Below are positions 48,522 through 64,000 of a DNA stretch of 64,000 nucleotides, one piece after another (position 1 is the first letter of the stretch; each line of letters opens with the position of its first letter). The notes beneath the pieces are model-generated. The model was not told where the DNA came from and ran no database searches. It worked only from the letters and a program-made list of their open reading frames with translations. Origin of the DNA: an uncultured Acidobacteriota bacterium (lineage in GTDB: Bacteria; Acidobacteriota; Terriglobia; Terriglobales; Acidobacteriaceae). Made by a program: the position numbers and the translations under genes. The stretch covers positions 1 to 64,000 of the forward strand of contig CAIQPK010000002.1 in the NCBI GenBank assembly GCA_903873705.1. Direction: 5' to 3'.

Positions 48522-49294
48522 TTGCCCGCCAGCGTCACGGGTTTTCGCGCTGGTCCTTCGACGTACACGGCCAGCTTGGCTTCCAGCACGCGTGGGCTGG
48601 TGCGTTCTACGATGGCCAGAACGCCTTCGAGCATCAACTCACGCAAGACCTGGCGCCGGTGCATCAAAATCCTTATGCGTCCCGCACAAGGAAAGAACAG
48701 CAGGTTCGCCGCGCCTACGCCGTAGATCGTTGCCACGAATGCGACCGCAATGCCCCGTCCCACTTCGTTGATGTTGTCTAACCTCTGCATGACCTGGATC
48801 AGGCCTATTACAGCTCCGAGAATCCCTATCGTCGGCGCATACCCGCCGGCCGCTTCAAATACCTTCGGCAGCAGATCTTCCTGGTCTGCTTCGGTCTGCA
48901 TCACCATCTCCATCGTGTCGCGGAGGTCGTTGGCGCGTGACCCATCGACCGCCAGCATCAGTCCCTTCCGCAGGAATGGGTTTCTCACCATCTCCAGTTC
49001 AGAATCAAGCGACAACAAGCCATTACGCCGCGCCTGCATGGCGTAGCGCGAGAGATCTTCGATCAGCGCAGCCGCCGGGTCGCTGCTACCCATGAACACC
49101 GGCTGCAACTGCGCAACTGCCCTTTTCATAACCGCAAACGGGAACTGCACGACCACCGCTCCCAGTGTTCCACCAAAGACAATCAGCGCGGCCGTCGGCT
49201 GGAGCAGCTGTCCAACTTTGCAGCCATCCAGGTGCAGCCCAACCCCGATTCCGGCCAGCGCTACAACCACCCCGATTGTTGCGCTTCTGTCCAT
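48518..49294 (-). CDS. motA: Flagellar motor stator protein MotA
   Basis: 258 residues, four helices. The first helix (ATIGVVVALAGIGVGLHLDG) and GGTLGAVVVQFPFAV are typical, as is the cytoplasmic loop carrying charged residues that touch FliG, and the two C-terminal helices (GYAPTIGILGAVIGLIQVMQ, GRGIAVAFVATIYGVGAANL). ATG 49294 follows GAGGT; the longer frame would use TTG. The gap of 86 bases to fliS has no clear promoter. Confidence 0.93.
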   Translation of the reverse strand: MDRSATIGVVVALAGIGVGLHLDGCKVGQLLQPTAALIVFGGTLGAVVVQFPFAVMKRAVAQLQPVFMGSSDPAAALIEDLSRYAMQARRNGLLSLDSELEMVRNPFLRKGLMLAVDGSRANDLRDTMEMVMQTEADQEDLLPKVFEAAGGYAPTIGILGAVIGLIQVMQRLDNINEVGRGIAVAFVATIYGVGAANLLFFPCAGRIRILMHRRQVLRELMLEGVLAIVERTSPRVLEAKLAVYVEGPARKPVTLAGK

Positions 49295-49380
49295 CCCGAA
49301 CCTCAATCACTGCTAACTACATCATCGGCTGCAGCAGATCACCGAGAGATAGAGCAGCGATTTTGTACAGTGGCAGCCAC

Positions 49381-49836
49381 TCAAGCATCACGCGAGAAAG
49401 CACCGTTTCGCCGTTGCGGCACCATCAGCATCACGCCAGCGGAAGCACCTCCGGCCGCGGGCTCGCCACCGGCATCACGCTGTTGCCACGCGCTTCGCAC
49501 CTGGAGGATCAACCCGATCTGCGCTTCCAATATCTCGGCGGACTTCATCGTCGAAGCGTCGAGCAGCTTCATGCGCAACCACGCATAAAAGCTCGTCAAG
49601 TTCTGCGCCAGTTCGCCGCCATGCTCGACGTCTACCCAGCTCTCCAGCTGGCCAATCACCAGGAAGGCGTGGTTCAACTCAGCGCAGCGCTTCTCAATCT
49701 CATTCGACCGTAGCGCCGCTGCAGCCCGCCTCAGGTTTCCTGAGAGTGTGTCATACAACGCGATTACGAGTCCGATCTCACTCGCGCCCTCAACAGCCGA
49801 CCGGCGATAAGAGAGTTGCATCTCATTCGCTTTCAT
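49381..49836 (-). CDS. fliS: Flagellar export chaperone FliS
   Basis: 151 residues. FliS holds flagellin monomers in the cytosol before export. The helical family features are seen: MQLSYRRSAVEGASEIGLVI, ALYDTLSGNLRRAAAALRSN and CAELNHAFLVIGQLESWVDV, then a shorter helix and a 25-residue Ala/Gly-rich tail that is longer than usual. The start overlaps the fliD stop (TGATG). Confidence 0.9.
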   Translation of the reverse strand: MKANEMQLSYRRSAVEGASEIGLVIALYDTLSGNLRRAAAALRSNEIEKRCAELNHAFLVIGQLESWVDVEHGGELAQNLTSFYAWLRMKLLDASTMKSAEILEAQIGLILQVRSAWQQRDAGGEPAAGGASAGVMLMVPQRRNGAFSRDA

Positions 49837-51521
49837 CAGCCACCACTCTTGGTGTTGTTGCCCAACTCGGCCTGTATCTGCGCCATCTGCGTAGGCAGCT
49901 GCTGGAGTGCAATCTCCGCCTTGCTGTACATGGCCGTAAGCAGGGTCTGTTGATTGGCAATGTAGATCGATTCAAAGTCCGCAACGTGCTGCGCCAGGTC
50001 CGCATTCGTCTTGCTGATGCTGTTCAGATCGACCGTGAAGGCGCCGTTGCCCGGATTCGTAAACACGCTCAGCTGATTGTTCATTGAGGCCGCAAATCCG
50101 TTGAGCGAAGCACCCTGAAAAAAGTTTTGCACGTCGGAGGCATTGTTTGCGAGAGCGTTTGCAAGCGTCGTGTTGTCCACCGCCAACACGCCATCATTGC
50201 TTGCAGAAATTCCCAGTGCACTCAATGTTGAGACAGTCGTGGTTCCTGATGCCGGCGTGCTCACATAGTTGAGTACCTGCAGCATCACCGCCTGCAGGGA
50301 ACGCACCGTGGGATCCGATCCCAACACGCCCTGCGAGCCCGCCGTAGCGCCGAACTGGGCATTCACCAGCCCGAGCGCAGTGTTGTAATCCGTTACGAAC
50401 TTACTGATTGCCGCCGAGACCTGCGTGCTGTCGGAAGCGATGGTGAGGTTCGCCGGCGTCGCAGCCAGCGTCGTACCCTGAAGATTCAGCGTTACTCCCG
50501 CAATCGCGCCGGTCACCTTGTTGCTCGCGCTGCTGATCGGTACACCATCCACCGTCAATACGGCATTCGCACCATGCGCCGCGAGTGTATAGCCGAACCC
50601 CGGCTCGCTGATGGTGAACGGTGTCGTCCCATCGCTGCTGACGACGTTCAGGTGGGAGCCACTGGAATCAGTTACCACACTGGCCGTCACACCCAGACGC
50701 TGTGTGTTGATATCGTCCGCCACCTGGCTAAACGTTTCGCCATCGGTGACGGCAATTGTCGTCGTCGTCGGACTCCCTGCGGCTCCGATGGTCAGCGTGA
50801 AGCTGTCCGCACCCAATGGCGTTGTTGGACTCGGGACGGGGGGTGAATTCCATGTGGTGGTCGTTGTTGGCCCGGAGGTAATTGAAAAGTCTCCCGCGCT
50901 ACCCGACGCATTACTGATAATGGCCAGCCGCGAACCCGATGCGTCGTTGATGACTGAAGCCGTTACACCGAGGTTCTTACCCGTGATCGTGGATGCAAGA
51001 TCATTCAGCGAGTTCACGCCTGCGCCAGTGGTGATCGTGGCCGAACCTGTGCTGGTGGTGAGGGTAAAAGTCGAATCCGGCAGCGCCGCCGTCGCACTTG
51101 CAGACAGGTCGGAGTACCACGACCCCGTACTCGCGAGGCTGGTCACGCCGACCGTGTGATTTCCCGTAACCGTTCCTGTAGCGGCCGTCGCGAGCACCGC
51201 ACTGGAGTTCGACGATGTCACGGTGCGTGCGGAAAGCGGTCCGCTCAACGTGTTCAGCGTCGTCATATCCGTCGTCAACGCCTTAGTTGCTGTCTGTATC
51301 GCGGAGAGTGCGCTTGTCTGACTGCTCAGCGTGGTCTGCTCTACCTGCCAGATCCGTTCCGAAGCTCGATCCGCGTAGATGGCCGCGTTAACCGCAGCAG
51401 TGACATCGATGCCCGGCGTGGAGGCCCCCACGCTCGATGCCAGGATGGAGCTCACATTGACAGACGGCGTCGTTGTCGCCGTCGACGAGAGCAGCGAATT
51501 AACCGCAGATACCGAACTCAT
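49836..51521 (-). CDS. fliD: Flagellar filament cap protein FliD
   Basis: 561 residues. FliD caps the growing filament and helps flagellin fold. The N-terminus has the coil-forming ASERIWQVEQTTLSSQTSAL region, the middle contains two Flagellin_IN-like repeats (NSLNDLASTITGKNLGVTAS and ETFSQVADDINTQRLGVTAS), and the C-terminus returns to a coiled segment with AEIALQQLPTQMAQIQAELG. The Ser/Thr-rich centre is poorly conserved. It sits between fliS and fliC, as expected. Confidence 0.93.
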   Translation of the reverse strand: MSSVSAVNSLLSSTATTTPSVNVSSILASSVGASTPGIDVTAAVNAAIYADRASERIWQVEQTTLSSQTSALSAIQTATKALTTDMTTLNTLSGPLSARTVTSSNSSAVLATAATGTVTGNHTVGVTSLASTGSWYSDLSASATAALPDSTFTLTTSTGSATITTGAGVNSLNDLASTITGKNLGVTASVINDASGSRLAIISNASGSAGDFSITSGPTTTTTWNSPPVPSPTTPLGADSFTLTIGAAGSPTTTTIAVTDGETFSQVADDINTQRLGVTASVVTDSSGSHLNVVSSDGTTPFTISEPGFGYTLAAHGANAVLTVDGVPISSASNKVTGAIAGVTLNLQGTTLAATPANLTIASDSTQVSAAISKFVTDYNTALGLVNAQFGATAGSQGVLGSDPTVRSLQAVMLQVLNYVSTPASGTTTVSTLSALGISASNDGVLAVDNTTLANALANNASDVQNFFQGASLNGFAASMNNQLSVFTNPGNGAFTVDLNSISKTNADLAQHVADFESIYIANQQTLLTAMYSKAEIALQQLPTQMAQIQAELGNNTKSGG

Positions 51522-51556
51522 AAGTTATTCCAGATCGTGCTGCGCTAAGACGAAGT

Positions 51557-51584
51557 GGAGGCGGAGCCATTCAGCTCCGCCCCC
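51557..51584 (-). terminator. Terminator of fliC
   Basis: GGCGGAGC (51560-51567) pairs with GCTCCGCC (51574-51581) around a short loop, beginning about 20 bases after the fliC stop on the minus strand; the tail reads ACTTCGTCTT, with few T. It would let flagellin be expressed above fliD. Confidence 0.6.
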
Positions 51585-51602
51585 GTGCTTACGTCAACGT
51601 GT

Positions 51603-52748
51603 TTACTGGAGCAGCTTCAGTACAGCCTGTTGCGCCTGGTTGGACTGCTGCAGTGCCGCCATGCCGGTCGATTGCAGAATGTTGAACTGCGTCATGTTCG
51701 CAACCGTCTTGCCGATGTCGGCGTTCTGGATGCTGTTCGACGCGCTCTGCAGGTTCTGCACCTGGTTGTTCATGACGTTGGACGCCGCTTGCAACCGGTT
51801 GACCGAAGCGCCAATCACACCACGCTGTGCCGATACGGTATTGATGGCGTTGTTGACCGCCGTCAATGCAGACTGGGCATTGGTCGTGCTGGTGAGCGCG
51901 CTGGTGTTCAGGTTGAGCTGCGTTGCCGAAAGCTGGCTGATCGCGGTAGAGATGGTCAGGTTTGTGGTCGATGTGCCATCGCTCAGGAACACCGTGTTGG
52001 TGCCACCGGTCGTGGGCGCGCTTTGCGCGAAGGCACCCATGACGGCGTCGTTCGAACTGACCGTGATGCCGGCCGTGCCGCCCTCAGCGATGACCGCCTT
52101 GCCGCCGGTCAGGGACAAAGCCGTGCCAGTGGACAGTGTGCCGTCAGCAACAGCCGCCGTGATCGAGGCTTGGAGATCGGAGATCTTGCTGCTTGCGCCC
52201 GCCGTGAAGACAAACGTGCCACCGGTCGCTGCATCTGAAATGACCGTCTTGCTGCCCGAGGTCAGAGCCGTGGTGGTTGCCAGCGAGCCCTGCGTCGAGG
52301 TGAAAGCTGTCGGCGCGTTCGAGGTGAACACGTTCTGGCCGTTGAAGTTTGTGTTCGTGCCGATCTGGTTGATCTCCGACATGATCGACTGGAATTCGTT
52401 GTCCAGCGCGACAGCCTGGCTGCCGGTGCCGCTGGTGATATTGCTCGAAGATGCTTCCGTCGCCAGCGTGACAGCGCGGTTGAGCAGTGTCGTCACCTGC
52501 GAGAGCGCACCGTCGGCGGTCTGCAGCATGCCGATGCCGTTGGACGCGTTCTGCTGAGACTGAGTGAGAGCAGCAATGTTAGCCTGCATTCCGTTGGCGA
52601 TCGACAGGCCGGCCGAATCGTCGGAACCAGAGTTGATCTTCAGGCCGGTCGAAAGCTGCGTGAGGGTCTTCTGGAGGCTCATCTGCGTATTCGACAGGGA
52701 GTTCTCCGCCGTCAGCGAGGAAATGTTATTCAGAATCGTGAGTGACAT
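51603..52748 (-). CDS. fliC: Flagellin
   Basis: 381 residues, medium length. The N-terminal D0/D1 region (LTILNNISSLTAENSLSNTQ then STGLKINSGSDDSAGLSIAN) and the C-terminal one (AAGLQQ-type end, here VLKLLQ, preceded by SNSIQNADIGKTVANMTQFN) are well conserved, with a short variable Ser/Thr/Ala-rich D2 in between (about 170-300), a good target for O-glycosylation. A sigma-28-type promoter lies at 52857-52883 and a terminator after the gene. It is the only flagellin in the window. Confidence 0.95.
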   Translation of the reverse strand: MSLTILNNISSLTAENSLSNTQMSLQKTLTQLSTGLKINSGSDDSAGLSIANGMQANIAALTQSQQNASNGIGMLQTADGALSQVTTLLNRAVTLATEASSSNITSGTGSQAVALDNEFQSIMSEINQIGTNTNFNGQNVFTSNAPTAFTSTQGSLATTTALTSGSKTVISDAATGGTFVFTAGASSKISDLQASITAAVADGTLSTGTALSLTGGKAVIAEGGTAGITVSSNDAVMGAFAQSAPTTGGTNTVFLSDGTSTTNLTISTAISQLSATQLNLNTSALTSTTNAQSALTAVNNAINTVSAQRGVIGASVNRLQAASNVMNNQVQNLQSASNSIQNADIGKTVANMTQFNILQSTGMAALQQSNQAQQAVLKLLQ

Positions 52749-52856
52749 GAGGTAGTGCTCCTTTTGGTTGCCGATGTACGTTCCGCACCCGGCATCTGTA
52801 GTAGCCCCAGGTTGAGGCGCCAGTCCGTCAAGACTTGGACTTCTCGGACAAGCAAC

Positions 52857-52883
52857 CTATCGGCCACTCTCATTTCCCGTTTC
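52857..52883 (-). promoter_or_regulatory. Sigma-28 (FliA) promoter of fliC
   Basis: On the minus strand GAAA, 15 bases and GCCGATAG follow the sigma-28 consensus TAAA-N15-GCCGATAA with one mismatch in each box. It lies about 110 bases before the fliC ATG. The presence of an anti-sigma factor gene (flgM) nearby supports a FliA-controlled late class. Confidence 0.75.
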
Positions 52884-52945
52884 AATGCTGCGAACGAGAA
52901 TCCGAAATTCGGACAACAAAAGGCGCCTTCGTTCGCGTAGGCAAG

Positions 52946-53839
52946 TTATTTCAAATAATCCAACAGCGTCTGCGGCAGTACCTTGCCCGCCACCGCCAAC
53001 ACCGCACTGTGGACCATCGATGCTTGCGACAAATCCGTCGCCGCCTTGGCAATGTCCACGCCCACCAACGCCGTCTGCTGGGTCGTCAACGTCACTGACT
53101 CCTGGTTCAGGTAGCTCTCCTGCGAACTCAGCTGGCTGATGCTGTTGTCGAGAGGCACACGCTGCTGTCCTACGTAATTCAACGCCGCTGTCACGGCTGT
53201 GGTTGCGGCGCCAATCGCTGTCGTCGATCCGGTTTGCAGCGCGGCGATCAATCCCTGCAGCGACCCGACCACGTTCGCGCCCGATGTGAACACCTGATCC
53301 CCCGGTAAATTCGTGACGACGCTCATCGCATCGCCAACCTGAACACTGTTCACGCTGCTATTACCGACGTACGTATAAGCAGCCGCACCCCCGGCGACAG
53401 CAGTATTCACGAAAGGCGGTGAGCCCGTAGCCGATCCGCCGAACAGATAGCTTCCCTGGTAAGACGTATTCGCCTCGGCCATCACGCTGCTCAGCACACC
53501 CTGGACCTGCGCCGCCACGACCTGGCGCTGCGCTACGGTCAGGGTTCCATTTGCTCCGCCCGTGCCGAGCGATACCGCCTGGTTCAGCGAGGTGACCACC
53601 ATGCTCAACGCCGAGTCCGCGGTCTGCATGCGCGCCGTCACCGTGCTCACATTCGCCGTGTAGCGATCAACGTTCGCCGTCGCCGCCAGTGACCGCACCA
53701 TACTCGCTGAGGCAGACGGATCATCGGCCAGCTGATTGACGCGACGGCTCGTCGATACCTGCTGCGTCGCCGTCGCCAGCGTCTCTTCGCTCTGCTGCAT
53801 CGCATACTGCACATCCGGCATCATCGTTGTTACGCGCAT
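52946..53839 (-). CDS. flgL: Flagellar hook-filament junction protein FlgL
   Basis: 297 residues. FlgL joins FlgK to the filament. The flagellin-like N-terminus (QYAMQQSEETLATATQQVST then NQLADDPSASASMVRSLAAT) and C-terminus (SYLNQESVTLTTQQTALVGV, then AATDLSQASMVHSAVLAVAG) are both present. In between lies the YLFGGSATGSPPF block seen in many FlgL. It ends 197 bases before the fliC start, a space that contains the fliC promoter. Confidence 0.93.
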   Translation of the reverse strand: MRVTTMMPDVQYAMQQSEETLATATQQVSTSRRVNQLADDPSASASMVRSLAATANVDRYTANVSTVTARMQTADSALSMVVTSLNQAVSLGTGGANGTLTVAQRQVVAAQVQGVLSSVMAEANTSYQGSYLFGGSATGSPPFVNTAVAGGAAAYTYVGNSSVNSVQVGDAMSVVTNLPGDQVFTSGANVVGSLQGLIAALQTGSTTAIGAATTAVTAALNYVGQQRVPLDNSISQLSSQESYLNQESVTLTTQQTALVGVDIAKAATDLSQASMVHSAVLAVAGKVLPQTLLDYLK

Positions 53840-53894
53840 CGTTTCCCTCGATCCCTCTTATCCGCCGCCTGTGCTTGCCACGCCGTTTCCTCGT

Positions 53895-55259
53895 TCATGT
53901 GCCCATGTTCATCGTGACGCTGAAGAGATCGTTGATCACCGAAACCACCCGCGCCGCCGCTGCATAGGCCTGCTGATACCGAATCAAATTCGTCGACTCC
54001 TCATCGATCGACACACCCGACACCGCGTTATTCTGATCGTTCAATTGCAGCAGGCTCGCTGTCGTTGCGCTGGCTTCGGCAGACGCGTGCGCCGTTAGAC
54101 TACCCACCTGGTAGACGAGATTGGCGTACGTCTCCGTTGGCGTCGCTCCGCCCGGCAGCGCGCTCGTCTGCACGGCAGTAAAGTTCACCAGGTTGCCATT
54201 GCTTCCCGCGTCGCCGTCCGAACTCGCCGCCACCGCAGCCGGATCGCTTGTGGCCATGCTGATCGTCGCCGCCGAGCCCGTTGCGGTCGCCGATAAATTG
54301 AACAGCTTTCCACCTGCGACCCCATGCTGATCGAAGCCCATTGCCTGCGCCGCGTTGAACGCTGCTCCTACCTGGTTCGCCAGCGCATCCAGCTGGTTCA
54401 GCAGGCCGGGAATGATCTGGTCGCGGGTAGTAATCGTTCCACCCAGGTCGCCCGTTTGGAGCGACGCTGTCACATCTGCGCCATTGCTGTCGAGCACATG
54501 CTGCATGCCATCGCTTCCCGTGGCCGTTTGCAGCGCAAAACTCTTGTCCGCCACCACCAGCGGCGTTCCGTTACCTGTTGTCACCGTGATGCCATTGTCG
54601 GTCTGTGTGATCGCCACATTGCTCAGCTTGAACAGGCTCAATACCAGCTGGTCCTGCTTGTCCTGCAACGACCCACCATCCTGCCCGTTTGCCTTCAGAG
54701 CCGCGAGTTGTGGGTTCAGCGCCGCGATCTGCTGCGCAAGCTGATTGATCTGACCCACGTCCTGCTTTACCTGCGTATTCAAGCCTGTCTGGGTCGCTGT
54801 GAGCGTCTGCGATACAGCATTGAATGCTAACGCCAGGTTCTGCCCGGACGTCAACACAGCCTGCCGCAACGACACATTCGCGGGGTCGGTCGAAAGAGTC
54901 GATACACTCGAAAACAACGCCGACATCTGTGTACCAATGTCCTGCGCCGACGTCGTGAACGCCGGCTGGATCTGCTGCAGCGTGCCCAATTGCGCATTGG
55001 CGCCGCTCTGCTCCTGCGCCTCTTGCCGGATCTGCATCTGCAACAGCTCGCTGCGCACACTCTGAAAGCCTTCAAGCACCACACCATTGCCCAGGCTCAC
55101 CCCACCGCTTTCGGTCGGTGCTGCCGTTTGCAGCACCACCGTCTGCCGCGAGTATCCTGGCGTATTCGCGTTAGCAATATTGTTGTTGGTCGCCTGCAAA
55201 GCTCCATTGTTGGCCAGCAGCGATTGCACGGCGATAGTAAGAGAGGTGTTCAATGACAT
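53895..55259 (-). CDS. flgK: Flagellar hook-associated protein FlgK
   Basis: 454 residues. First hook-filament junction protein. The conserved start (LTIAVQSLLANNGALQATNN then NIANANTPGYSRQTVVL) and end (SGVSIDEESTNLIRYQQAYA, AAARVVSVINDLF) are clear. The central part has the FlgK coiled segment (DIGTQMSALFSSVSTLSTDP) and an FlgK-specific domain with GTLQQIQPAFTTSAQ. The gene starts three bases past the stop of the FlgN-like gene. Confidence 0.95.
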   Translation of the reverse strand: MSLNTSLTIAVQSLLANNGALQATNNNIANANTPGYSRQTVVLQTAAPTESGGVSLGNGVVLEGFQSVRSELLQMQIRQEAQEQSGANAQLGTLQQIQPAFTTSAQDIGTQMSALFSSVSTLSTDPANVSLRQAVLTSGQNLALAFNAVSQTLTATQTGLNTQVKQDVGQINQLAQQIAALNPQLAALKANGQDGGSLQDKQDQLVLSLFKLSNVAITQTDNGITVTTGNGTPLVVADKSFALQTATGSDGMQHVLDSNGADVTASLQTGDLGGTITTRDQIIPGLLNQLDALANQVGAAFNAAQAMGFDQHGVAGGKLFNLSATATGSAATISMATSDPAAVAASSDGDAGSNGNLVNFTAVQTSALPGGATPTETYANLVYQVGSLTAHASAEASATTASLLQLNDQNNAVSGVSIDEESTNLIRYQQAYAAAARVVSVINDLFSVTMNMGT

Positions 55260-55262
55260 CGG

Positions 55263-55691
55263 CTACATCTCGCAGGACCAGGTTTGATGTTTCGACCTGG
55301 CGCCACGAGCCTCCTGAAATTGTCCTGAATGGGTTCTGCACAAAGAGGAAAGCAGCGCGATCGACCTGCCCGAATGCTTCAGCAGGGCCGCATACTGCAA
55401 GTTCAATAACTGGAGCGTTCCTTGCGTCACGCGGATCTTGGCTGCCAACCCTTCATCCATTTGGGACGGCAGGCTCGCCTGCGGTTGCTGCTCCAGCCCC
55501 TGCCACACTGTGCCGGCTACCTTCGCCAGGCTCGCGCACATCATCTCCTGCCTCGCGACGCTTTCTTCCAATCGCGGCAGCGCATTGCAGGCAACAGCTT
55601 CCACGGCCACAGAGATCTCCGCGGCCAGAGCCTGCATCTGCTGCAGATACACCGCCCCCAGTTCATCGCGACTCTGGACTGCTCTCGCCAT
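55263..55691 (-). CDS. FlgN-like export chaperone
   Basis: 142 residues, mostly helical. FlgN proteins bind FlgK and FlgL before export. Supporting signs are position directly before flgK, the repeated coil pattern (ARAVQSRDELGAVYLQQMQA, LPRLEESVARQEMMCASLAK) and a LQYAALLKHSGRSIALLSSL segment like the family C-terminus. Sequence similarity to known FlgN is low. I start at ATG 55691; the frame open to 55760 would overlap flgM. Confidence 0.65.
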   Translation of the reverse strand: MARAVQSRDELGAVYLQQMQALAAEISVAVEAVACNALPRLEESVARQEMMCASLAKVAGTVWQGLEQQPQASLPSQMDEGLAAKIRVTQGTLQLLNLQYAALLKHSGRSIALLSSLCRTHSGQFQEARGARSKHQTWSCEM

Positions 55692-55740
55692 CTCTAACCC
55701 TGCCCTCTCGTTCCGGCCTTCACCGGCGCGCGGCCGGCTG

Positions 55741-56022
55741 CTAGTTGCTGCTGTCGCCAATCAACGCTGAAGCCAGCTTGTTAACGTCAACCTTGTACGT
55801 TCCGTTGCTAATCGCCGACCGCAGAGCATCAACTTTGTCCTGCCGCACATCCGGTGTGCTCAGCGCCTGCTTCACCAGTGACTGCACCGACGCCGAGCCC
55901 GATTGAAACGTCGTACGGTCTGCCGTAACTTCGCTCGGAGCCGTGCTGCCCGGCGAAATCTGCTTAGCGCTGCGTTCCACCGCGCCCGTCACACTCGCCA
56001 GCCCGTTAAGTTCAACCTTCAT
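55741..56022 (-). CDS. flgM: Anti-sigma-28 factor FlgM
   Basis: 93 residues, unstructured in the first half and helical in the second. FlgM holds FliA inactive until the hook is finished and is then exported. The FlgM block is VRQDKVDALRSAISNGTYKV followed by DVNKLASALIGD at the C-terminus. ATG 56022 follows AGGAGGG; the frame open to 56097 lacks a start signal. Its presence implies a fliA gene elsewhere. Confidence 0.88.
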   Translation of the reverse strand: MKVELNGLASVTGAVERSAKQISPGSTAPSEVTADRTTFQSGSASVQSLVKQALSTPDVRQDKVDALRSAISNGTYKVDVNKLASALIGDSSN

Positions 56023-56103
56023 CGCGTCCCTCCTGTGTTCAACAGGTATGCCTATCGGCAGTTCCTGAAAAATGTTCAGAAGCAACCACCAACACAAAAT
56101 TCC

Positions 56104-56454
56104 TCAGCCTTTCTCCGTTTCCTCCGTCTTGTGCAGCTGCTTCGCGATCATCTTCGCCAGTCCAATCCCCCCAGCCTCAGTCAGCGACGCCCCCAGCGAC
56201 TGCATCGCCATCCCCTGGAACTGCTCCTTGCAGGGATCCTCGTCTTCGTCATCACCGCCCGGCAGTTTCGCAAAACTGTTCTCGGCCTCCTGCAACCAGT
56301 TGCTCAGCAGCAGCGACTCGAAATCCTTAGCGGACTTTTCGATCTTCACTCCCTCTTTCGTTAGCCCGGAAGCCTGTTTCAGCAGCTTGTCCGCTTGCGC
56401 ATTCAGCGCCCCGGCTCCTGCTTGTGCCATCGCATTCATTGCCACGTCCGCCAC
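56104..56454 (-). CDS. Flagellar rod-binding protein, FlgJ N-terminal domain
   Basis: 116 residues, only the rod-binding part of FlgJ without the muramidase, as in many non-enteric bacteria. SAKDFESLLLSNWLQEAENS and FQGMAMQSLGASLTEAGGIG are the family blocks (Rod-binding domain), followed by LAKMIAKQLH. An acidic linker (GGDDEDEDPCKE) separates them. It directly follows the flgI-like part of the hybrid gene, the normal flgI-flgJ order. Confidence 0.82.
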   Translation of the reverse strand: MADVAMNAMAQAGAGALNAQADKLLKQASGLTKEGVKIEKSAKDFESLLLSNWLQEAENSFAKLPGGDDEDEDPCKEQFQGMAMQSLGASLTEAGGIGLAKMIAKQLHKTEETEKG

Positions 56455-58368
56455 TTAGATCACCTCCAACTCAGCCTGCAAACCACCCGCCGCCTTGATT
56501 GCCTGCAGGATCGCAATAATGTCGTGCGACGTCGCACCGATCGCGTGCAGTCCCTTGATGAGCTCGTCGACGTTGGCCCCTTCCTTCATCTGGATCGACC
56601 TTGCTGGCGCATCCTTCACCGTCACGCGCGTCTCCGGCACCGCGGTCGTCCCGCCGGTCTTCGAGAAGGACGAAGGCTGCGAGACCGCGAAATCCGTCTG
56701 CACTTCGATCGTCAGGCTGCCGTGGATAACCGACACCGGCGACAACTTCACATCCCCTCCCATTACAATCGTGCCCGTCCGCTCGTTCACCACCACTCTC
56801 GCCGGCGCCGACAAACTCACCGCCAGCCGTTGCACCCGCGCAATCAAATTCGGCACGGAAGCCACGCCACTATCGGCCACACTCACATCTACCCGGCTGC
56901 TATCGACAGCCGTTGCCACCGTCTTTGCAAAATCAGAGTTGATTGCTGCCGCTATATCCCGCGCCGCCGTGAAGTCCTGGTTGCGCAGCAGCAGCGACAC
57001 GGTATGAAATCGGCTCAAATCCACAGCCACGCCCCGCTCAATCGTCCCGCCCTCCGCAATGCGCCCCACCGTCGGATGATTCACGGTCTTCGTATTGCCC
57101 ACCGCTCCTTCCGAGTAGCCGCCAATGGTCATCGGTCCCTGCGCCTCGGCATAAACCTGCCCGTCGATGCCCCGCAGCGCTGTAAACAACAACACCCCGC
57201 CTTCAAGACTCTTCGCATCGCCCACCGAAGACACGGTCACATCCATTTTCATTCCCGGCCGTGCAAACGCCGGCAGCGACGCCGTCACAAACACCGCCGC
57301 TACATTTTTTACGACCACCACACCCGGAGCGATCTGCACTCCCATGCGCTGCATGATGTTGGCCAGCGTCTGCACCGTAAAGAACGTCTGCTGCCGGTCA
57401 CCCACTTCAACCGTCTTGTAGAGTGCCTGCGCCAGCGGCCGGTTCTCGATCGTCATGATCCCGTTCTCGCGCGCAATCGCCTTGATCTTCTCGGCCAAGA
57501 GATCAAGCCCCTTCGCCACCACGATGGGCGCCGCCATGTCCTGCTCATACTTCAGTGCTACCGCGAAGTGCGTCGGGTTCGTCACCACCACCGTCGCCGT
57601 CGCGGCAGCCATCAACGACTGCTTCCGCCGCATTGCCCGCTGCACCTGCCGCACACGCTGCTTGATCACCGGGTTGCCTTCGGTCTCCTTGTACTCTTCT
57701 CGCACTTCCTGCTTGGTCATCTTCATGTCGCTCTGCATCTTCTTCAGCGTCAGCACGTAATCCACCACCGACCAACCCAGCAGAATCAATCCTGCCTTCC
57801 ACGCCATCGCAAAGATCACCTGCCCCACAAAGCTCGCGAAGTTCCGCAGCCCCAGGCTCGACGCGTTCACCATCGTCTGCCAGTTATCCCGCATCGCGCC
57901 GACCGTGATCCACAGAATCGCGCCAAACGGCAGCAGCGACTTGCCAAGGTTGCTCAACCCGACCGGCGAGAAGATCTGTCCCAGCTTGCTCGCCGGATTG
58001 AAGCGCTCAAACTTCGGCTGCAGCGCTTCGGGCGCGAAGTTGATGCCGCCCTGCATGAATCCAGTGAGCAGCGACACGCCCAACCCCGCCAGCAGAATCG
58101 GAACAATCCACCGCAGTACTTCAATCGCGCTCCAGAACAACACCGGACCATTCGCATCCAGATTCTGCGTCGCTGCCACGAACAGCGTCTCGCGATATAG
58201 CGCGCCCCAATGCGTCACCGCTGTCGGCGTCATCAGCATCGTCACCGCGGTGACGGCAGCCAGCGCGAAGACGCCCGGCAGTTCACGCGACCGCGCAACC
58301 TGCCCCTGCTCCCGCGCCTTCAGCTTTCGCCGGTCTGTCGCCTGTTCTGTTTTGCTGCTATCTGCCAT
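56455..58368 (-). CDS. FlhB-FlgI hybrid: export-gate protein fused to truncated P-ring protein
   Basis: 637 residues in one open frame. Residues 1-324 are FlhB: the MADSSKTEQATDRRKLKARE start, four helices, the autocleavage site NPTH (264-267) and IENRPLAQALYKTVEVGD. At residue 323-324 (57397-57402) the sequence switches to FlgI: RQQTFFTVQTLANIMQRMGV, KNVAAVFVTASLPAFARPG, VTVSSVGDAKSLEGGVLL and so on to the normal C-terminus ELEVI. FlgI thus lacks its signal peptide and about 60 residues, FlhB lacks its last 30 or so. FlhB ends in VGD and FlgI has TGDRQQTF at the join, so a deletion at a short homology fits. The fused P-ring part could not be secreted by Sec. Confidence 0.85.
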   Translation of the reverse strand: MADSSKTEQATDRRKLKAREQGQVARSRELPGVFALAAVTAVTMLMTPTAVTHWGALYRETLFVAATQNLDANGPVLFWSAIEVLRWIVPILLAGLGVSLLTGFMQGGINFAPEALQPKFERFNPASKLGQIFSPVGLSNLGKSLLPFGAILWITVGAMRDNWQTMVNASSLGLRNFASFVGQVIFAMAWKAGLILLGWSVVDYVLTLKKMQSDMKMTKQEVREEYKETEGNPVIKQRVRQVQRAMRRKQSLMAAATATVVVTNPTHFAVALKYEQDMAAPIVVAKGLDLLAEKIKAIARENGIMTIENRPLAQALYKTVEVGDRQQTFFTVQTLANIMQRMGVQIAPGVVVVKNVAAVFVTASLPAFARPGMKMDVTVSSVGDAKSLEGGVLLFTALRGIDGQVYAEAQGPMTIGGYSEGAVGNTKTVNHPTVGRIAEGGTIERGVAVDLSRFHTVSLLLRNQDFTAARDIAAAINSDFAKTVATAVDSSRVDVSVADSGVASVPNLIARVQRLAVSLSAPARVVVNERTGTIVMGGDVKLSPVSVIHGSLTIEVQTDFAVSQPSSFSKTGGTTAVPETRVTVKDAPARSIQMKEGANVDELIKGLHAIGATSHDIIAILQAIKAAGGLQAELEVI

Positions 58369-58382
58369 CGTGTCCTGACCAG

Positions 58383-59150
58383 TTACCGAGCAAGATGAAG
58401 CAAGTGGTCTGCCATCTGCATCGCGTTCAAAAACAAATGTTCGAAAAGCTGCGGCCAGTACTTCAGCGCCGCCATCAAAATGCCCAGGCCCAACACACTC
58501 TTCACTGCGGGGCCGAGCAACATCAGCGGCAGCTGCGGCGACGCTTTCCCCATCAGCCCCAGCGCGATGTCAGCGATCAATGTGGCCGAAAGCACCGGCG
58601 CCGCAATCTGTATCCCAATCGTGAACACGGCGGCCCCGGCCTCGAGCGCGGCCTTCACAAAGGCCCCACTGAAGTGCCCCGTGGACGGCGGCAGATACTC
58701 AAAGCTGTGCACCACTGCCCGCAGAATCCACATGTGAACATCGAGCCGCAGAAAAATCAGCATCGCCATAGTCTGGTGAAACAACGCCACCACAGTGGAG
58801 TCGACCTGCGTCTGCGGATCGAGAATATTCACCAACGAGTAGCCCATCTGCACGCTCAGCACCGACCCCGCCATCTGCACACCGTCGAATACAATGTTGG
58901 TGGCAATCCCCACTGCAACCCCAATGATCAACTCGCCGAAGATCATCATCGGCCACTGGCTAATCTCCAGCGCAGGCATCTTGGCCTGCAGCATCGGATA
59001 AAGCAGCGCCGTCAGCGCCAGCACCAGCACGGCCTTCACGCGCGCCGGGATTGCGACGCTGCCAAAGAACGGCGCAAACAGCATCATGCCGGTCAGCCGC
59101 ACGCTGATCGTCAGCAGCGTGCCGAAGAGCTGCACCAGCGAGATCCGCAT
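58383..59150 (-). CDS. fliR: Flagellar export-gate protein FliR
   Basis: 255 residues with about six helices. It is part of the FliP/Q/R gate complex. Recognisable: SLVQLFGTLLTISVRLTGMM with FAPFFGSVAIPARVKAVLVL, ELIIGVAVGIATNIVFDGVQ and IGIQIAAPVLSATLIADIAL. ATG 59150 overlaps the fliQ stop (TAATG). The stop lies 14 bases before flhB. Confidence 0.93.
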   Translation of the reverse strand: MRISLVQLFGTLLTISVRLTGMMLFAPFFGSVAIPARVKAVLVLALTALLYPMLQAKMPALEISQWPMMIFGELIIGVAVGIATNIVFDGVQMAGSVLSVQMGYSLVNILDPQTQVDSTVVALFHQTMAMLIFLRLDVHMWILRAVVHSFEYLPPSTGHFSGAFVKAALEAGAAVFTIGIQIAAPVLSATLIADIALGLMGKASPQLPLMLLGPAVKSVLGLGILMAALKYWPQLFEHLFLNAMQMADHLLHLAR

Positions 59151-59419
59151 TACTCCAGCACCTGGTGAAAGTCGCTCAACAGATTGATGGTGTACTGCGC
59201 CAGGTGCCGCCACATCCACGGCATCATGAAGAACAGCACCGCTCCCGTAGCCAGAAGCCGAGGCACCGCGGCCAGTGTCTGGTCCTGCAACGAGGTCAAT
59301 ACCTGCAGTACGTTTACGATCAGGCTCACGATCACTGCCGCCAGCAGGATCGGCGCCGTCAACATCACGACCTCCCGCAACATCGACCGCCCCAGGAACA
59401 CCACGGCATCCACACCCAT
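59150..59419 (-). CDS. fliQ: Flagellar export-gate protein FliQ
   Basis: 89 residues, two helices (VVMLTAPILLAAVIVSLIVN and ATGAVLFFMMPWMWRHLAQY) joined by LQVLTSLQDQTLAAVPRL, the family motif. Both ends overlap the neighbouring genes by one base. Confidence 0.95.
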   Translation of the reverse strand: MGVDAVVFLGRSMLREVVMLTAPILLAAVIVSLIVNVLQVLTSLQDQTLAAVPRLLATGAVLFFMMPWMWRHLAQYTINLLSDFHQVLE

Positions 59420-60219
59420 TAGTGAAAGCTCCTCATCAACGCACCGATCAGCAGGTGCCAGCCGTCGACCATCAAAAACAGCAGCAGCTTCAGCGGCGTC
59501 GAAATCACCACGGGCGGCAGCTGCATCATGCCCACCGACGTCGTAATTGACGCCACCACCATGTCCACAATCAGGAACGGCAGGAACAGCACCGCACCAA
59601 TCTGAAAGCCCGCCTTTAACTCCGACAGAATGTAGGCCGGCAACAAGACGCGCAACGAAAGATCGTTCGCCGTCCTCGGCCGCGGCTCCTTCGCCAGGTC
59701 AAGAAACAGCGCAACGTCCTTCTCGCGCACATAATGCGACATGAACTCCCGCAGCGGCACCGACCCACGTTCGACCGCCACCAGCGCCGTAATCTTGCCA
59801 CTCTGCAGCGGCACAATCGACTCTCGATAGACGCGATCGCCCACTGGCTGCATCAGGAAGAACGTCAAAATCATCGACAAGCCCACCAGCGTCTGGTTCG
59901 AAGGCGTCGTCTGCAAACCCAGTGCCTGCCGAAGAAAATGAAACACAATCAGCAGCCGCGCAAACGGCGTCATGCAGATCAGGATCGAAGGAATCAGTGT
60001 CAGAAACGTCAGCAGAACGACGATCGTCCACTGTGCCGATCCGCCGCCGATTCCGGCAATCGTTAACTCATTCGGATTTACAGCCTGCGCGCCCAACGGC
60101 GCCACCTGCACTGGCGCAACCTGCGCTGTCTTCGCCGCCTCGGGCGTCACCATTTGCCCACGAGCGCCACCTCCGCCGATCAGTATCAGCAGTGCGAGCC
60201 CAAGCATCCGCAGCTTCAT
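59419..60219 (-). CDS. fliP: Flagellar export-gate protein FliP
   Basis: 266 residues. A signal peptide (MLGLALLILIGGGGARG) precedes four helices. FliP motifs: LIPSILICMTPFARLLIVFH, RQALGLQTTPSNQTLVGLSM, AYILSELKAGFQIGAVLFLP and FLIVDMVVASITTSVGMMQL. It has a somewhat long periplasmic start (AAKTAQVAPVQVAPLGAQAV). The start overlaps the fliO stop by four bases. Confidence 0.95.
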   Translation of the reverse strand: MKLRMLGLALLILIGGGGARGQMVTPEAAKTAQVAPVQVAPLGAQAVNPNELTIAGIGGGSAQWTIVVLLTFLTLIPSILICMTPFARLLIVFHFLRQALGLQTTPSNQTLVGLSMILTFFLMQPVGDRVYRESIVPLQSGKITALVAVERGSVPLREFMSHYVREKDVALFLDLAKEPRPRTANDLSLRVLLPAYILSELKAGFQIGAVLFLPFLIVDMVVASITTSVGMMQLPPVVISTPLKLLLFLMVDGWHLLIGALMRSFH

Positions 60220-60635
60220 GCTCGCCTCTTTGCGGCGGCAAGTTTTACTGCGGGCTTCTTCGCGGCGGGCCGTTTACGCTTCACGCTCGCTTTCTTTAGC
60301 GTTTCGCCGAACAGGCTCACTTCCGATACAACCTTCGTCGCTTTATCCTCGGCCAGCGGGGCCAGAAGCGCGACTCCGGTCGGTCCTCCGCCGATCAGAA
60401 ACTGCACGTTGTCCACCTGCACCACGGCGACAAAGCGCTTGTCCCCCAAAGACGCCGTCTCCACCACCCGGAGCCGTCGCGAATCCAGGCGCGCAGTTTT
60501 TCGCGCCTGAATCCATATCCATGCCCGCGTCAGAAATCCCGTAGTGGACCTCCACGCCTGCAGTGACGACTCTGCCGTCGCAGCCGCGAAAGGCAGCTGC
60601 GCCTGCATCGGCGGCGGCACCACGCGCGCGCTCAC
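60216..60635 (-). CDS. fliO: FliO-like flagellar export protein
   Basis: 139 residues. FliO normally has one membrane helix and a cytoplasmic domain. The domain is clear (RLRVVETASLGDKRFVAVVQ then VDNVQFLIGGGPTGVALLAP, about 54-93), but no convincing membrane helix precedes it; only TTGFLTRAWIWIQ is moderately hydrophobic. The C-terminus is a strongly basic Lys/Ala-rich tail (VKRKRPAAKKPAVKLAAAKR). Position between fliN and fliP supports the call; overlaps of four bases at each side. Confidence 0.78.
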   Translation of the reverse strand: MSARVVPPPMQAQLPFAAATAESSLQAWRSTTGFLTRAWIWIQARKTARLDSRRLRVVETASLGDKRFVAVVQVDNVQFLIGGGPTGVALLAPLAEDKATKVVSEVSLFGETLKKASVKRKRPAAKKPAVKLAAAKRRA

Positions 60636-60949
60636 GATAGGTCCGTGAGTCGCACGGCAAGGCGTTCGCCGACAACTTCAAACTCTGTCCAACCCACCAG
60701 CTGCCCATTCACCCGCAGCGGCAGATCGCTGCTCTGGTGATAAGCCGTCTCCACGATCGAGCCCCGGGTCAGACTCAGCAGGTCGCTCACCGTAAACTTC
60801 ACCACCGGAATATCCAGTGCGAGCTTGCACGGCAGCCACGGTAACGACTCGCCGGGGTCCTTCTGCTCCTGCACCTTCTCCACCAGTTGTAGGCCGGCGC
60901 TGGGCTTTACCTCAACTTCAGTTATCGCTGTGCTCGCTGCCAGGTTCAT
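60632..60949 (-). CDS. fliN: Flagellar motor switch protein FliN
   Basis: 105 residues. The SpoA domain fills the C-terminal 70 residues: LPCKLALDIPVVKFTVSDLL, then LTRGSIVETAYHQSSDLPLR, VNGQLVGWTEFEVVGERLAV and RLTDL. FliN forms the bulk of the C-ring and binds CheY and FliH. ATG 60949 follows AGGAG, so the longer frame to 61051 is rejected. No fliM is seen in the window, though it could lie elsewhere. Confidence 0.9.
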   Translation of the reverse strand: MNLAASTAITEVEVKPSAGLQLVEKVQEQKDPGESLPWLPCKLALDIPVVKFTVSDLLSLTRGSIVETAYHQSSDLPLRVNGQLVGWTEFEVVGERLAVRLTDLS

Positions 60950-61072
60950 TGCGCATCTCCTAACAGCAGGAGATAAAGCAATCCGGCGACCATTCTTCAG
61001 CACGAGGCGAAACCCCAGCAAAATCAGGGCCGTGCATCCTCTGTTCCCCAATCGATGAGAGCGTTTCTCACC

Positions 61073-61126
61073 AACATGAGCCCGCGCCCCTCAGCCTGCA
61101 GGCCGAGAGGACGGGCGCTCATGTTG
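61073..61126 (-). terminator. Long inverted repeat between flgE and fliN
   Basis: AACATGAGC...CCCTC (from 61073) pairs with GAGG...GCTCATGTT (to 61126), a stem of about 18 bp with small bulges around CAGCCTGCAGGCC. No T-tract follows. It may attenuate transcription after flgE or process the transcript, in a 190-base gap without genes. Confidence 0.5.
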
Positions 61127-61139
61127 TCCTAAGAAAGCA

Positions 61140-62402
61140 TTACTGGATCATTGCAATCGTTGCCTGCGACACTTGGTTGAACGTCGTAATCGACTTCGCA
61201 TTCGCCGAATAGGCCTGCTGCGCCACGATCAACTTCGCAAACTCCGTCGCAATGTCCACGTTCGACTGCTCCACCGAGCTCCCGACCACTGTGCCGCGAC
61301 CGCCTGTTCCCGCCATGCCGATAACCGCTCCGCCCGATGCCGATGTCGCCTGGAAGTTCGTGCCGCCCGTGTGGGCCAGCCCCTGCACGTTGGCAAATGA
61401 GGCCACCGCCACCTGTCCCAGCGCCAGCGTCTTTCCGCTTGAAAACGTTCCGTCAATCGTCCCGTCGGTACGTACCGTGTAGCTCTTCAGCGTTCCGCTC
61501 GCGTAGCCGTCCTGGTTCGTCGCGTTGGTCGCGCTCGCCGATGCCGTCTGGCTGATCGTCGTATTGCCCGAGGCATCGGTCAAATTCCATTTCAGACTCG
61601 GAGCCGCAGCGCCATCGGCCAAGGTCGTTCCCGTCGGCAGGGTTACGGTAATGCTCTTAGCCGGTGGCGTGCCCGCTAGCACCATGGCACCTTTTGTATC
61701 GAAGTTAAACGTGCCGGAGCCAACCTGCGTCGTCCCCGTTCCGCCCGTGCTCAAATCCGCGGAAGGCAGCGACACCGAGTAGCTCCACTGGTTCGTCCCC
61801 GTCTTGGTATACGAAACGCTCAGCGTGTGTGATGATCCCAGCGAGTCGTAAACCGAAAATGTGCTGGGCGCTCCCGTCCCGCCAATCGCAGTGTCCGAGT
61901 TCAGGTTCGCGGAAATATCGAATTGCGTCGATGCCACGGCCGGGCTGGTCACGCTGCCTACCTGTAATGGCTGCAGTGCTGCAGTCGTGTTCACAATGCC
62001 GTTCACTGCCGGATAACCCAGCAGTAACTGCCCGCTCGGGGTTGTCAGTTGGCCTGCGTTGTTCGTCGTAAAGTCACCGGCGCGCGTAAAGCTCTCCAGG
62101 CCCGTCGAGTCCTCGGTAACAAAGAAGCCATTTCCCGATAACGCCATGTTCGATGACGTACCGGTCGAGTTAATGTTGCCTTCAGTAAAGTTCGCGTCGG
62201 TCGCCGCGATCTGTACACCCGACCCCGTCTGCAGCGGGTCGCCGCTGCCGTTGGTGTTGCTTACCTGCGAGAACAGGTCGCTGAAGCTGACGTTCTGGTC
62301 TTTGTAGCCATCCGTATTCAGGTTGGCGAGATTGTTGGAGACCGACTGCAGCTGCTGTTGCGCCGCAGTCAAACCGGATAAGGGAATTGAAAATGAAGCC
62401 AT
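61140..62402 (-). CDS. flgE: Flagellar hook protein FlgE
   Basis: 420 residues. The conserved rod/hook N-terminus (SIPLSGLTAAQQQLQSVSNN then LANLNTDGYKDQNVSF), the NMALSGNGFFV block and C-terminus (EQSNVDIATEFAKLIVAQQA then YSANAKSITTFNQV) are all there. The Thr/Ser/Gly-rich centre is variable. Start overlaps the flgD stop by one base, consistent with operon order flgD-flgE. Confidence 0.96.
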   Translation of the reverse strand: MASFSIPLSGLTAAQQQLQSVSNNLANLNTDGYKDQNVSFSDLFSQVSNTNGSGDPLQTGSGVQIAATDANFTEGNINSTGTSSNMALSGNGFFVTEDSTGLESFTRAGDFTTNNAGQLTTPSGQLLLGYPAVNGIVNTTAALQPLQVGSVTSPAVASTQFDISANLNSDTAIGGTGAPSTFSVYDSLGSSHTLSVSYTKTGTNQWSYSVSLPSADLSTGGTGTTQVGSGTFNFDTKGAMVLAGTPPAKSITVTLPTGTTLADGAAAPSLKWNLTDASGNTTISQTASASATNATNQDGYASGTLKSYTVRTDGTIDGTFSSGKTLALGQVAVASFANVQGLAHTGGTNFQATSASGGAVIGMAGTGGRGTVVGSSVEQSNVDIATEFAKLIVAQQAYSANAKSITTFNQVSQATIAMIQ

Positions 62403-62902
62403 TACTTTCCTCCTGAAATCGTGGTGCCGGGGAAGCCCATCGCTGCAGCATTGAGGGGCGAGTTGATGTCGGCCACAGGCGTGGTGCCCACGGGCATCAT
62501 CGTGTTGGGGTCAAAAGGCAGCGTATTCCCTGCTGCAGCAGCAGTTGCCGGCGACGTGGCTGCAGCATTGGGCGAAGTCTTCACGACCGTTGAACTCGCC
62601 GCCGGCACGGGAGTCGTGCCGCTGGCCGCGCCTCCGAGAGTCTGGTTGATGCCGATCAACTGGTTCAACTGGTTCAGAGAAATCATCTGGCCCACCATCG
62701 CCGTTGAATCCATCGGCGCCGTCGGGTCCTGGTTCTGCAACTCCTTCACCAGCAGGCTAAGGAACGTCGAATCCAGGTTGCCGTCCGCTGCATTGCTGGC
62801 GCTGCTTCCAGTTGTGGAGTCGGCAGCCTTCGCCGTCGGCGTGGTTACCGCTGCGGGTGTGTACATCGATGTTGAAAAATTTGTTGCCACTGCGCTCATC
62901 AT
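62402..62902 (-). CDS. flgD: Flagellar hook-cap protein FlgD
   Basis: 166 residues, short for FlgD: only the N-terminal hook-cap part is present and the C-terminal Ig/tudor-like domains are missing. The core is LDSTFLSLLVKELQNQDPTA then PMDSTAMVGQMISLNQLNQL, with the rest a Pro/Ala/Thr-rich tail. FlgD scaffolds hook assembly and is discarded afterwards. Short FlgD forms of this kind are known outside enterics. Confidence 0.9.
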   Translation of the reverse strand: MMSAVATNFSTSMYTPAAVTTPTAKAADSTTGSSASNAADGNLDSTFLSLLVKELQNQDPTAPMDSTAMVGQMISLNQLNQLIGINQTLGGAASGTTPVPAASSTVVKTSPNAAATSPATAAAAGNTLPFDPNTMMPVGTTPVADINSPLNAAAMGFPGTTISGGK

Positions 62903-62941
62903 TCCTCCTGCTTGCTCACAACTGCTTTCAAAAACGACCCG

Positions 62942-64000
62942 CTAAGCCCTCACATCCAACCGGACACTGCCTCGGCTCTCGTTGGTTGCGCCCGAAACAG
63001 CACTGGGCACAAATCGCTGCGCTACCGAATACCCCCGCGCGCTTGCCGCCCCCTGCTCGCGCTGCTGGCGAGGCTCCCGGCCATCACCAGCATTGGCGTT
63101 CGCTCCATGCGCCTCTCGCGAGGATTCAGACGACCCATTCGATCCACCCTGGGCACCACGCCCGTTCAAATCGATCTGCACATGACTGGTCTGCCCAGTG
63201 CCGGCGAGCTTCGCCTGCATCTCCGGAATGTGTGTCGCCAGCGCACGTGCGAGATCACCATGATCAAGAGAGATTTGTGCGGACACCCTATCCGGCGTAG
63301 TAGAAGTGCGGATCGAGATCGACCCAAACTCCGCCGACCGCATCCCGACCCGCATCTCTGTCTGGCCAATCCCCTGCACCAGCTTCGCCATACTCACTCC
63401 GGGAAGCACTTGTGGTACGACCGCAGGAGTCATTGCGCCGTCTGCACCAACATCAACGCCCGTCTTTTCTGCATGCGCACTCACTAGCGCGCCTGCTGCG
63501 GGCGGGATCGCAATGCCGGCCGTCCCTGCGCTCGTGCGCCCATCCATCACGGCCGGTGCGTTCCCGTTCGTAACCGCAGGCCCTCCCATCGCTTCGTCAC
63601 GCTGGCTGTGCTCCAATCCCGCGTGCACTGGCAAGGCGTCAGGGACTTCATTCACTTCGGGCGCATCGCTCAGCGCCGCGACACTCTTCTCATGCTTCGC
63701 TGCCCCATCATCCTTTGCACTGGCTTTGCCCTTCCCCTTTGCCGCTTGGCCCGCCACCGATGGGGTCTTGCTGACTGGCCCGGCCGCAGCAGCGGCCACC
63801 CGCGTCACGCCCGTGCCCTTCAAATCCGTACGCGCCACCGGGACCGCGGGAACCTGGGCCGGTTGCACCGTCGCAGCCTGCGCGTTCGTCTGTACCGGAA
63901 CCGCGATCTGCTGCATGGCCGCCAGGTGCTTCTCAACGGGGTCGCCTTGCGGAGTAGCTGGAACCGGCGTACCGGCTCCAGGAGCAGCTGCCGGTCCCCT
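62942..64000 (-). CDS. fliK: Flagellar hook-length control protein FliK (partial)
   Basis: At least 353 residues; the frame remains open to the end of the window, so the N-terminus is missing. FliK is exported and measures hook length. The C-terminal Flg_hook domain is visible: KLVQGIGQTEMRVGMRSAEF, SISIRTSTTPDRVSAQISLD and LARALATHIPEMQAKLAGTG. Then a Gly/Asn/Ser/Gln-rich tail. The N-terminal part is Ala/Pro/Val-rich low complexity, usual for FliK. Confidence 0.88.
   Translation of the reverse strand, partial: RGPAAAPGAGTPVPATPQGDPVEKHLAAMQQIAVPVQTNAQAATVQPAQVPAVPVARTDLKGTGVTRVAAAAAGPVSKTPSVAGQAAKGKGKASAKDDGAAKHEKSVAALSDAPEVNEVPDALPVHAGLEHSQRDEAMGGPAVTNGNAPAVMDGRTSAGTAGIAIPPAAGALVSAHAEKTGVDVGADGAMTPAVVPQVLPGVSMAKLVQGIGQTEMRVGMRSAEFGSISIRTSTTPDRVSAQISLDHGDLARALATHIPEMQAKLAGTGQTSHVQIDLNGRGAQGGSNGSSESSREAHGANANAGDGREPRQQREQGAASARGYSVAQRFVPSAVSGATNESRGSVRLDVRA

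Follow-up and report, generated by a model that had tools for sequence, protein, structure and literature searches.

The hybrid frame and its flagellar neighbors

The window (the whole stretch of DNA analyzed, 64,000 nucleotides) holds on its minus strand a single open frame of 637 aa, at 56455..58368, that starts with the ATG at 58368, has zero internal stops and joins parts of two flagellar genes, flhB and flgI. Residues 1-322 (57403..58368, minus strand) correspond to FlhB, as delimited by the Pfam domain Bac_export_2 and by alignment to the protein of G017, the relative with the best match. Residues 325-637 plus the stop codon (56455..57396, same strand) correspond to FlgI by the Pfam domain of that name and, again, the G017 alignment. 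Between them lies the junction GGTGAC (57397..57402, minus strand), coding for Gly323-Asp324, which the comparison of flhB and flgI from eight relatives assigns to both parts. Bac_export_2 (FlhB, PF01312) covers hybrid residues 5-325 (profile 2-319 of 335, E 1.5e-98) and FlgI (PF02119) residues 323-636 (profile 29-343 of 343, E 1.1e-108). Compared with G017, the C-terminal 56 of 380 residues of FlhB are gone, as are the first 69 of 383 residues of FlgI; the NPTH self-cleavage motif is kept at residue 264 of the hybrid. Judged by eye, the FlgI signal peptide falls within the lost start, and the frame opens with FlhB. An earlier note on this DNA had described FlhB residues 1-324 followed in one frame by FlgI without its start, a reading that these alignments bear out.

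The hybrid scores 292.1 with the FlhB equivalog TIGR00328, below the cut-off of 349.25, and 350.6 with the NCBIfam FlgI model NF003676, above the cut-off of 300. As it passes for FlgI and falls short for FlhB, automatic annotation may hide a deletion of this kind. The genome to which the window belongs (4,181,895 bases in 94 contigs, with a listed completeness of 100% and a contamination of 1.56%) matches each of the two families once, in the halves of the hybrid. The whole-genome family search detected no second flhB or flgI copy elsewhere, a check that had been proposed in the earlier note.

We examined the whole contig (positions 1-150879) for other flagellar genes. Upstream of the hybrid, at 58383..64000 on the minus strand, there are fliR, fliQ, fliP, a fliO-like and a fliN-like gene, flgE, flgD and fliK, all open; the fliO and fliK matches stay below their curated cut-offs, so that these names lean partly on synteny. 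The FliN-like gene, recognized by Pfam, is located at 60632-61051. Downstream (49381..56454, minus strand) follow a flgJ-type rod-binding gene, flgM, a flgN-like gene, flgK, flgL, fliC, fliD and fliS, also open, the flgN-like gene being named by synteny alone with no Pfam match. The cluster ends with the open frames of a motA/motB pair (47766..49306, minus strand). Regulators, flgB, flgC, fliE, fliF, fliG, fliH, fliI and fliJ appear at 106197-112449 of the contig, again on the minus strand, open and syntenic with the relatives, and the contig carries two mot pairs in all, both with open frames. The fliK, flgD, fliO, flgM and flgN-like genes align only partially to relatives and were called open by frame length. 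With this reading, all the flagellar genes identified on the contig other than the hybrid are open frames, and the loss therefore amounts to one contiguous block. Two apparent exceptions were discarded. fliK is not truncated at the window edge, since its frame (635 aa) passes the window end and continues to contig position 64849. The internal stops seen in some flagellar matches were an artefact of a joined query crossing gene ends; taken separately, the genes are open.

Other features of the region deserve mention. fliJ and fliK are about 41 kb apart (contig 64849-106197), and they are neighbors in the four relatives compared. The intervening stretch contains a CheA-like gene, other signalling genes and a motAB pair. 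On the plus strand at 45538-47769 there is a TPR protein with a glycosyltransferase family 41 domain (O-GlcNAc-transferase type), the end of which overlaps the end of motB. This protein is possibly a flagellin glycosyltransferase.

The locus in relatives and the genes missing from this genome

We searched 61 genomes of relatives with the hybrid and found matches in 27, the window's own genome being one of these. No other genome among them has the hybrid: 24 hold flhB and flgI at separate places, and two (G047 and G048) match FlgI only. Of the 27 further genomes in the genus, the hybrid query matches 13. In 12 of these 13, which have both genes, flhB and flgI are on one contig and strand with 7-10 kb between them; in the remaining one (G008) they are found on different contigs. 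The gene order in G017 is flhB, flhA, fliA, fliM, fliN, an unnamed gene, a frame with an HDOD domain, flgF, flgG, flgA, flgH and flgI. The unnamed gene has a weak MshEN match, below the cut-off. The HDOD frame (L023 10433-11158, 241 residues) carries a partial domain and lies between the unnamed gene and flgF. In eight relatives the two points that meet at the join, one in flhB and one in flgI, are 7.2-9.7 kb apart, with 9.4 kb in G017. Thus, the flanks of the hybrid are collinear in relatives with extra DNA between them (in 12 of the 13 genus genomes, with the gene content taken from G017). The comparison with sister genomes that the earlier note had called for gives the same picture, flhB and flgI being separate in the relatives and the intervening genes in place.

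Three genomes from other genera (G186, G237 and G312) have a FlgI 68-71% identical to the FlgI part of the hybrid. The values for members of the same genus were 72% (G017) and 68% (G027), with G015 and G007 lower than the three from other genera. These three also carry a second, more distant FlgI, 50-51% identical over the tested stretch. The identities hint at two types of flagellar cluster and at transfer between genera.

A wider search was made in the class. A 189-residue query across the join matched 155 of 299 genomes of the class, and among the matches listed only the genome of the window covered the full 1-189 span. Any second fusion would be expected high in the ranking of these matches. 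We also examined nine loci, seven with listed FlgI matches in frames of at least 500 residues and two with matches reaching far left of the join. FlgI was found in all nine and FlhB before FlgI in none, and both were found in two control loci. Four other left-reaching matches (G172, G244, G249 and G339) are in frames that, at 375-431 residues, could not accommodate the hybrid. In a scan of named genomes (579 relatives), close matches to the hybrid came from Granulicella, Terriglobus and Silvibacterium bohemicum, which suggests that the genome belongs to the Acidobacteriaceae, and none of the matches listed in the best 80 loci spanned both halves. Titles and the opening parts of abstracts yielded no published account of an FlhB-FlgI fusion or of flagellar loss in this group.

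To establish what is missing, family profiles were used for FlhA and FlgH only. Neither has a match in this genome, and the same profiles match in 4 of 14 (FlhA) and 3 of 14 (FlgH) control genomes. For the rest of the block, G017 proteins were joined into one query of 2408 residues (FliP as a control, FlhA, FliA, FliM, FliN, the unnamed gene, FlgF, FlgG, FlgA and FlgH). Its five matches were FliP, the control, at 86%, two cross-matches to FlgE, and two sigma factors. By this single-sequence search, less sensitive than a profile, we found no orthologues of FliM, FliN, the unnamed gene, FlgF, FlgG or FlgA; for the latter, which would be the chaperone, the G017 protein matches nothing in the genome. 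The sensitivity of the joined query is limited, as shown by the Pfam-recognized FliN-like gene that it did not list, and distant relatives of the block genes could escape it. The earlier note had named flhA, flhF, fliA, flgF, flgG, flgA and flgH as missing and had suggested searching the rest of the genome for flhA, flgH, flgA and flgG. None of these four turned up elsewhere, and most of the list holds, by profile for flhA and flgH and by single-sequence search for the others. The exception is flhF, which is not among the nine assigned genes of the G017 block, and the list was incomplete, the block also holding fliM, fliN and the unnamed gene.

The case of fliA requires some comment. Some fliA adjoins flhA in 12 of the 13 relatives (none does in G018), and from this adjacency it is likely that a fliA stood in the lost block. 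The nearer of the two sigma factors matched by the joined query, an orphan of the FliA/WhiG type that passes the FliA/WhiG model, lies on another contig (contig 16:151-843, L116, minus strand). It is 43-50% identical to the flhA-adjacent fliA of eight relatives, and six of those eight carry a closer copy of it (73-77%) elsewhere. That it is the deleted fliA, relocated, is less likely given these closer copies, yet in G006, G012, G024 and G025 the flhA-adjacent gene is itself of the close type (81-83%), which is contrary evidence. Copies at 72-80% identity are also present in 9 of the 14 genus genomes lacking FliP. A flagellar sigma factor retained without flagella may serve another regulon.

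The join and the time since it formed

The hybrid DNA at residues 322-325 reads GTG GGT GAC CGG. At the position of the join, Gly-Asp is found in FlgI of all eight relatives compared and in FlhB of six of the eight, and the run of DNA common to flhB and flgI is 5-7 bp in six of them and 2 bp in the other two. The comparison with these eight relatives thus places a short direct repeat at the join. By a hand estimate, a random pair of breakpoints would share at least 6 bp about once per thousand. Joins of this sort usually arise when short repeats undergo slippage or end-joining. GGTGAC at this place lends support, short of proof, to a deletion at short homology. This had been the suggestion of the earlier note and it is now well supported, with the intervening genes absent here and present in relatives, and Gly-Asp usual in both parents. 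The chance that a deletion keeps the frame is one in three.

We consider it highly probable that the locus is a real deletion scar, the result of a recent loss of a flagellar block at a short repeat, with the hybrid as a by-product. A single in-frame deletion, of roughly 7-10 kb by comparison with relatives, would have joined the DNA at the 6-bp repeat, one copy being close to the 3' end of flhB and the other close to the 5' end of flgI. Gone with it would be the end of flhB, the start of flgI and the genes in between, which in G017 are flhA, fliA, fliM, fliN, the unnamed gene, flgF, flgG, flgA and flgH.

An artefact of assembly or of a mixed population would leave the same trace. The cells, or most of them, would then have the full cluster, flhB would have been joined to flgI by a scaffolding error, by a chimeric molecule or through a minority strain, and the block would be unassembled or unbinned. 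The genome is a draft of 94 contigs, possibly a metagenome bin, and a block left out of the bin would look absent in the FlhA, FlgH and single-sequence searches alike. No 16S gene was found in it, which would fit a bin, but the same is true of 5 of the 14 control genomes. However, k-mer assemblers need overlaps longer than about 6 bp, and the run shared at the join is about that short, so that a real joined molecule is likely. A mixed population would also be expected to fork the assembly graph at the join, and the genome is listed as 100% complete, yet FlhA and FlgH are absent. We regard an artefact as unlikely.

If the block was lost, its loss seems to be recent. The 25 flagellar frames, 7059 codons in total, contain no break, which sets a 95% bound of about 0.005 substitutions per site on the neutral divergence since the deletion, assuming that all 25 genes were free of selection at once, from the deletion on. 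The set includes the fast-changing fliK, flgD and fliO, which align to relatives only partly. The hybrid alone gives a weak bound of 0.056. A three-way comparison that included G017 and G015 gave the share of protein change falling on this branch. It is 0.26 for the FlhB part, 0.17 for the FlgI part and on average 0.227 for 24 other genes taken as controls, or a mean of 0.26 (range 0.12-0.34) for the 21 genes left after removing three wrong-paralogue comparisons (MotA2 and MotB2 in G017, MotA1 in G015). A faster decay of the halves of the hybrid is thus not seen. The unbroken frames and branch shares fit a recent deletion, at strain or species level, without proving it, and this is what they suggest.

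The same data bear on an older loss, fixed in the whole species, after which the remaining flagellar genes would have been retained in a different role, for example as a secretion remnant or in surface sensing. The other genes of the cluster are indeed open and the FliA-type sigma factor remains on contig 16. Nevertheless, the four markers searched reveal no part-set in any other genome of the genus, secretion without FlhA is not expected, and frames that are still unbroken speak for a short interval. An older loss appears to us quite improbable.

The conservation of the two halves could also be read as function. According to this reading, self-cleavage at NPTH would free a cytoplasmic piece made of the FlhB end and FlgI, or the FlhB half would work in a reduced export gate. 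The frame is open, the motif is kept, the halves change no faster than other flagellar proteins, and a natural FliR-FlhB fusion has been described in Clostridium (PMC7064499). On the other hand, recency explains the conservation equally well, FlhA is absent, the FlgI start is lost, and the fusion was seen in none of the 61 relatives, the matches listed from the 299 class genomes or the nine loci checked. A functional fusion is accordingly very unlikely, and a conserved or useful fusion, including the novel one with FlgI freed by autocleavage that the earlier note had listed as a possibility, is not supported, as no second genome with it was seen and FlhA is missing. We give equally little credence to the more specific version in which the hybrid is made and kept, its FlhB half sitting with FliPQR and shedding the FlgI half, and the FlhA-less gate acting as a reduced export or surface-sensing device.

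Expected consequences for the cell and comparison with known systems

We expect this soil bacterium to make no flagellum, because it lacks FlhA for export and FliM for the switch as well as the distal rod and the L ring. According to PMC7911332, FlhA is central to the flagellar export machine and NPTH is the site of FlhB self-cleavage. In a Salmonella flhA null mutant with the empty vector, the substrate FlgD is reported to accumulate inside the cell (PMC3139655). The hybrid protein itself is probably functionless, with FlhB deprived of its end and a FlgI that, without signal peptide, would stay inside. The FlgI part should be unable to reach the periplasm by the usual route, and the FlhB half, which keeps NPTH, might self-cleave and leave a cytoplasmic FlgI fragment.

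Within the genus, FliP is present in 14 of 28 genomes and FlhA in 13, the same 13 that match FlhB and FlgI. The genome of the window is the only one of the 28 with FliP and without FlhA. FlhA is likewise absent from the 14 genomes that have no FliP, and none of them matched the hybrid; 5 of these 14 are less than 90% complete, and FliP is absent in 9 of the 19 near-complete genomes of the genus. Loss of the flagellum looks common in the genus, and this genome seems to represent an early stage of it. To speak of a lineage that lost motility, one of the options in the earlier note, goes beyond the data, which are one genome of the species with its remaining flagellar frames unbroken. What the locus would offer is a clean snapshot of early flagellum loss, one deletion with the other flagellar frames open. 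It is most likely a deletion scar of the ordinary kind and brings to light neither a new protein nor a new mechanism.

The FlhB family has the Bac_export_2 domain and NPTH as the hybrid does; the hybrid is short of the C-terminal residues present in G017, and the partner FlhA is not in the genome. The FlgI family profile is matched from position 29 to its end, without the first residues, signal peptide included, and the partner FlgH of the L ring is likewise not in the genome. Short-homology deletions that abolish bacterial motility, removing a block of flagellar genes in one step and leaving the rest open, are a close parallel; the case described here differs in that it happens to leave an in-frame hybrid, and titles and abstract openings yielded no matching published case with such a hybrid. 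The natural FliR-FlhB fusion of Clostridium likewise joins neighboring flagellar export genes (PMC7064499). That fusion unites two partners of one gate, whereas the hybrid combines two truncated proteins that belong to different compartments, with the intervening genes gone.
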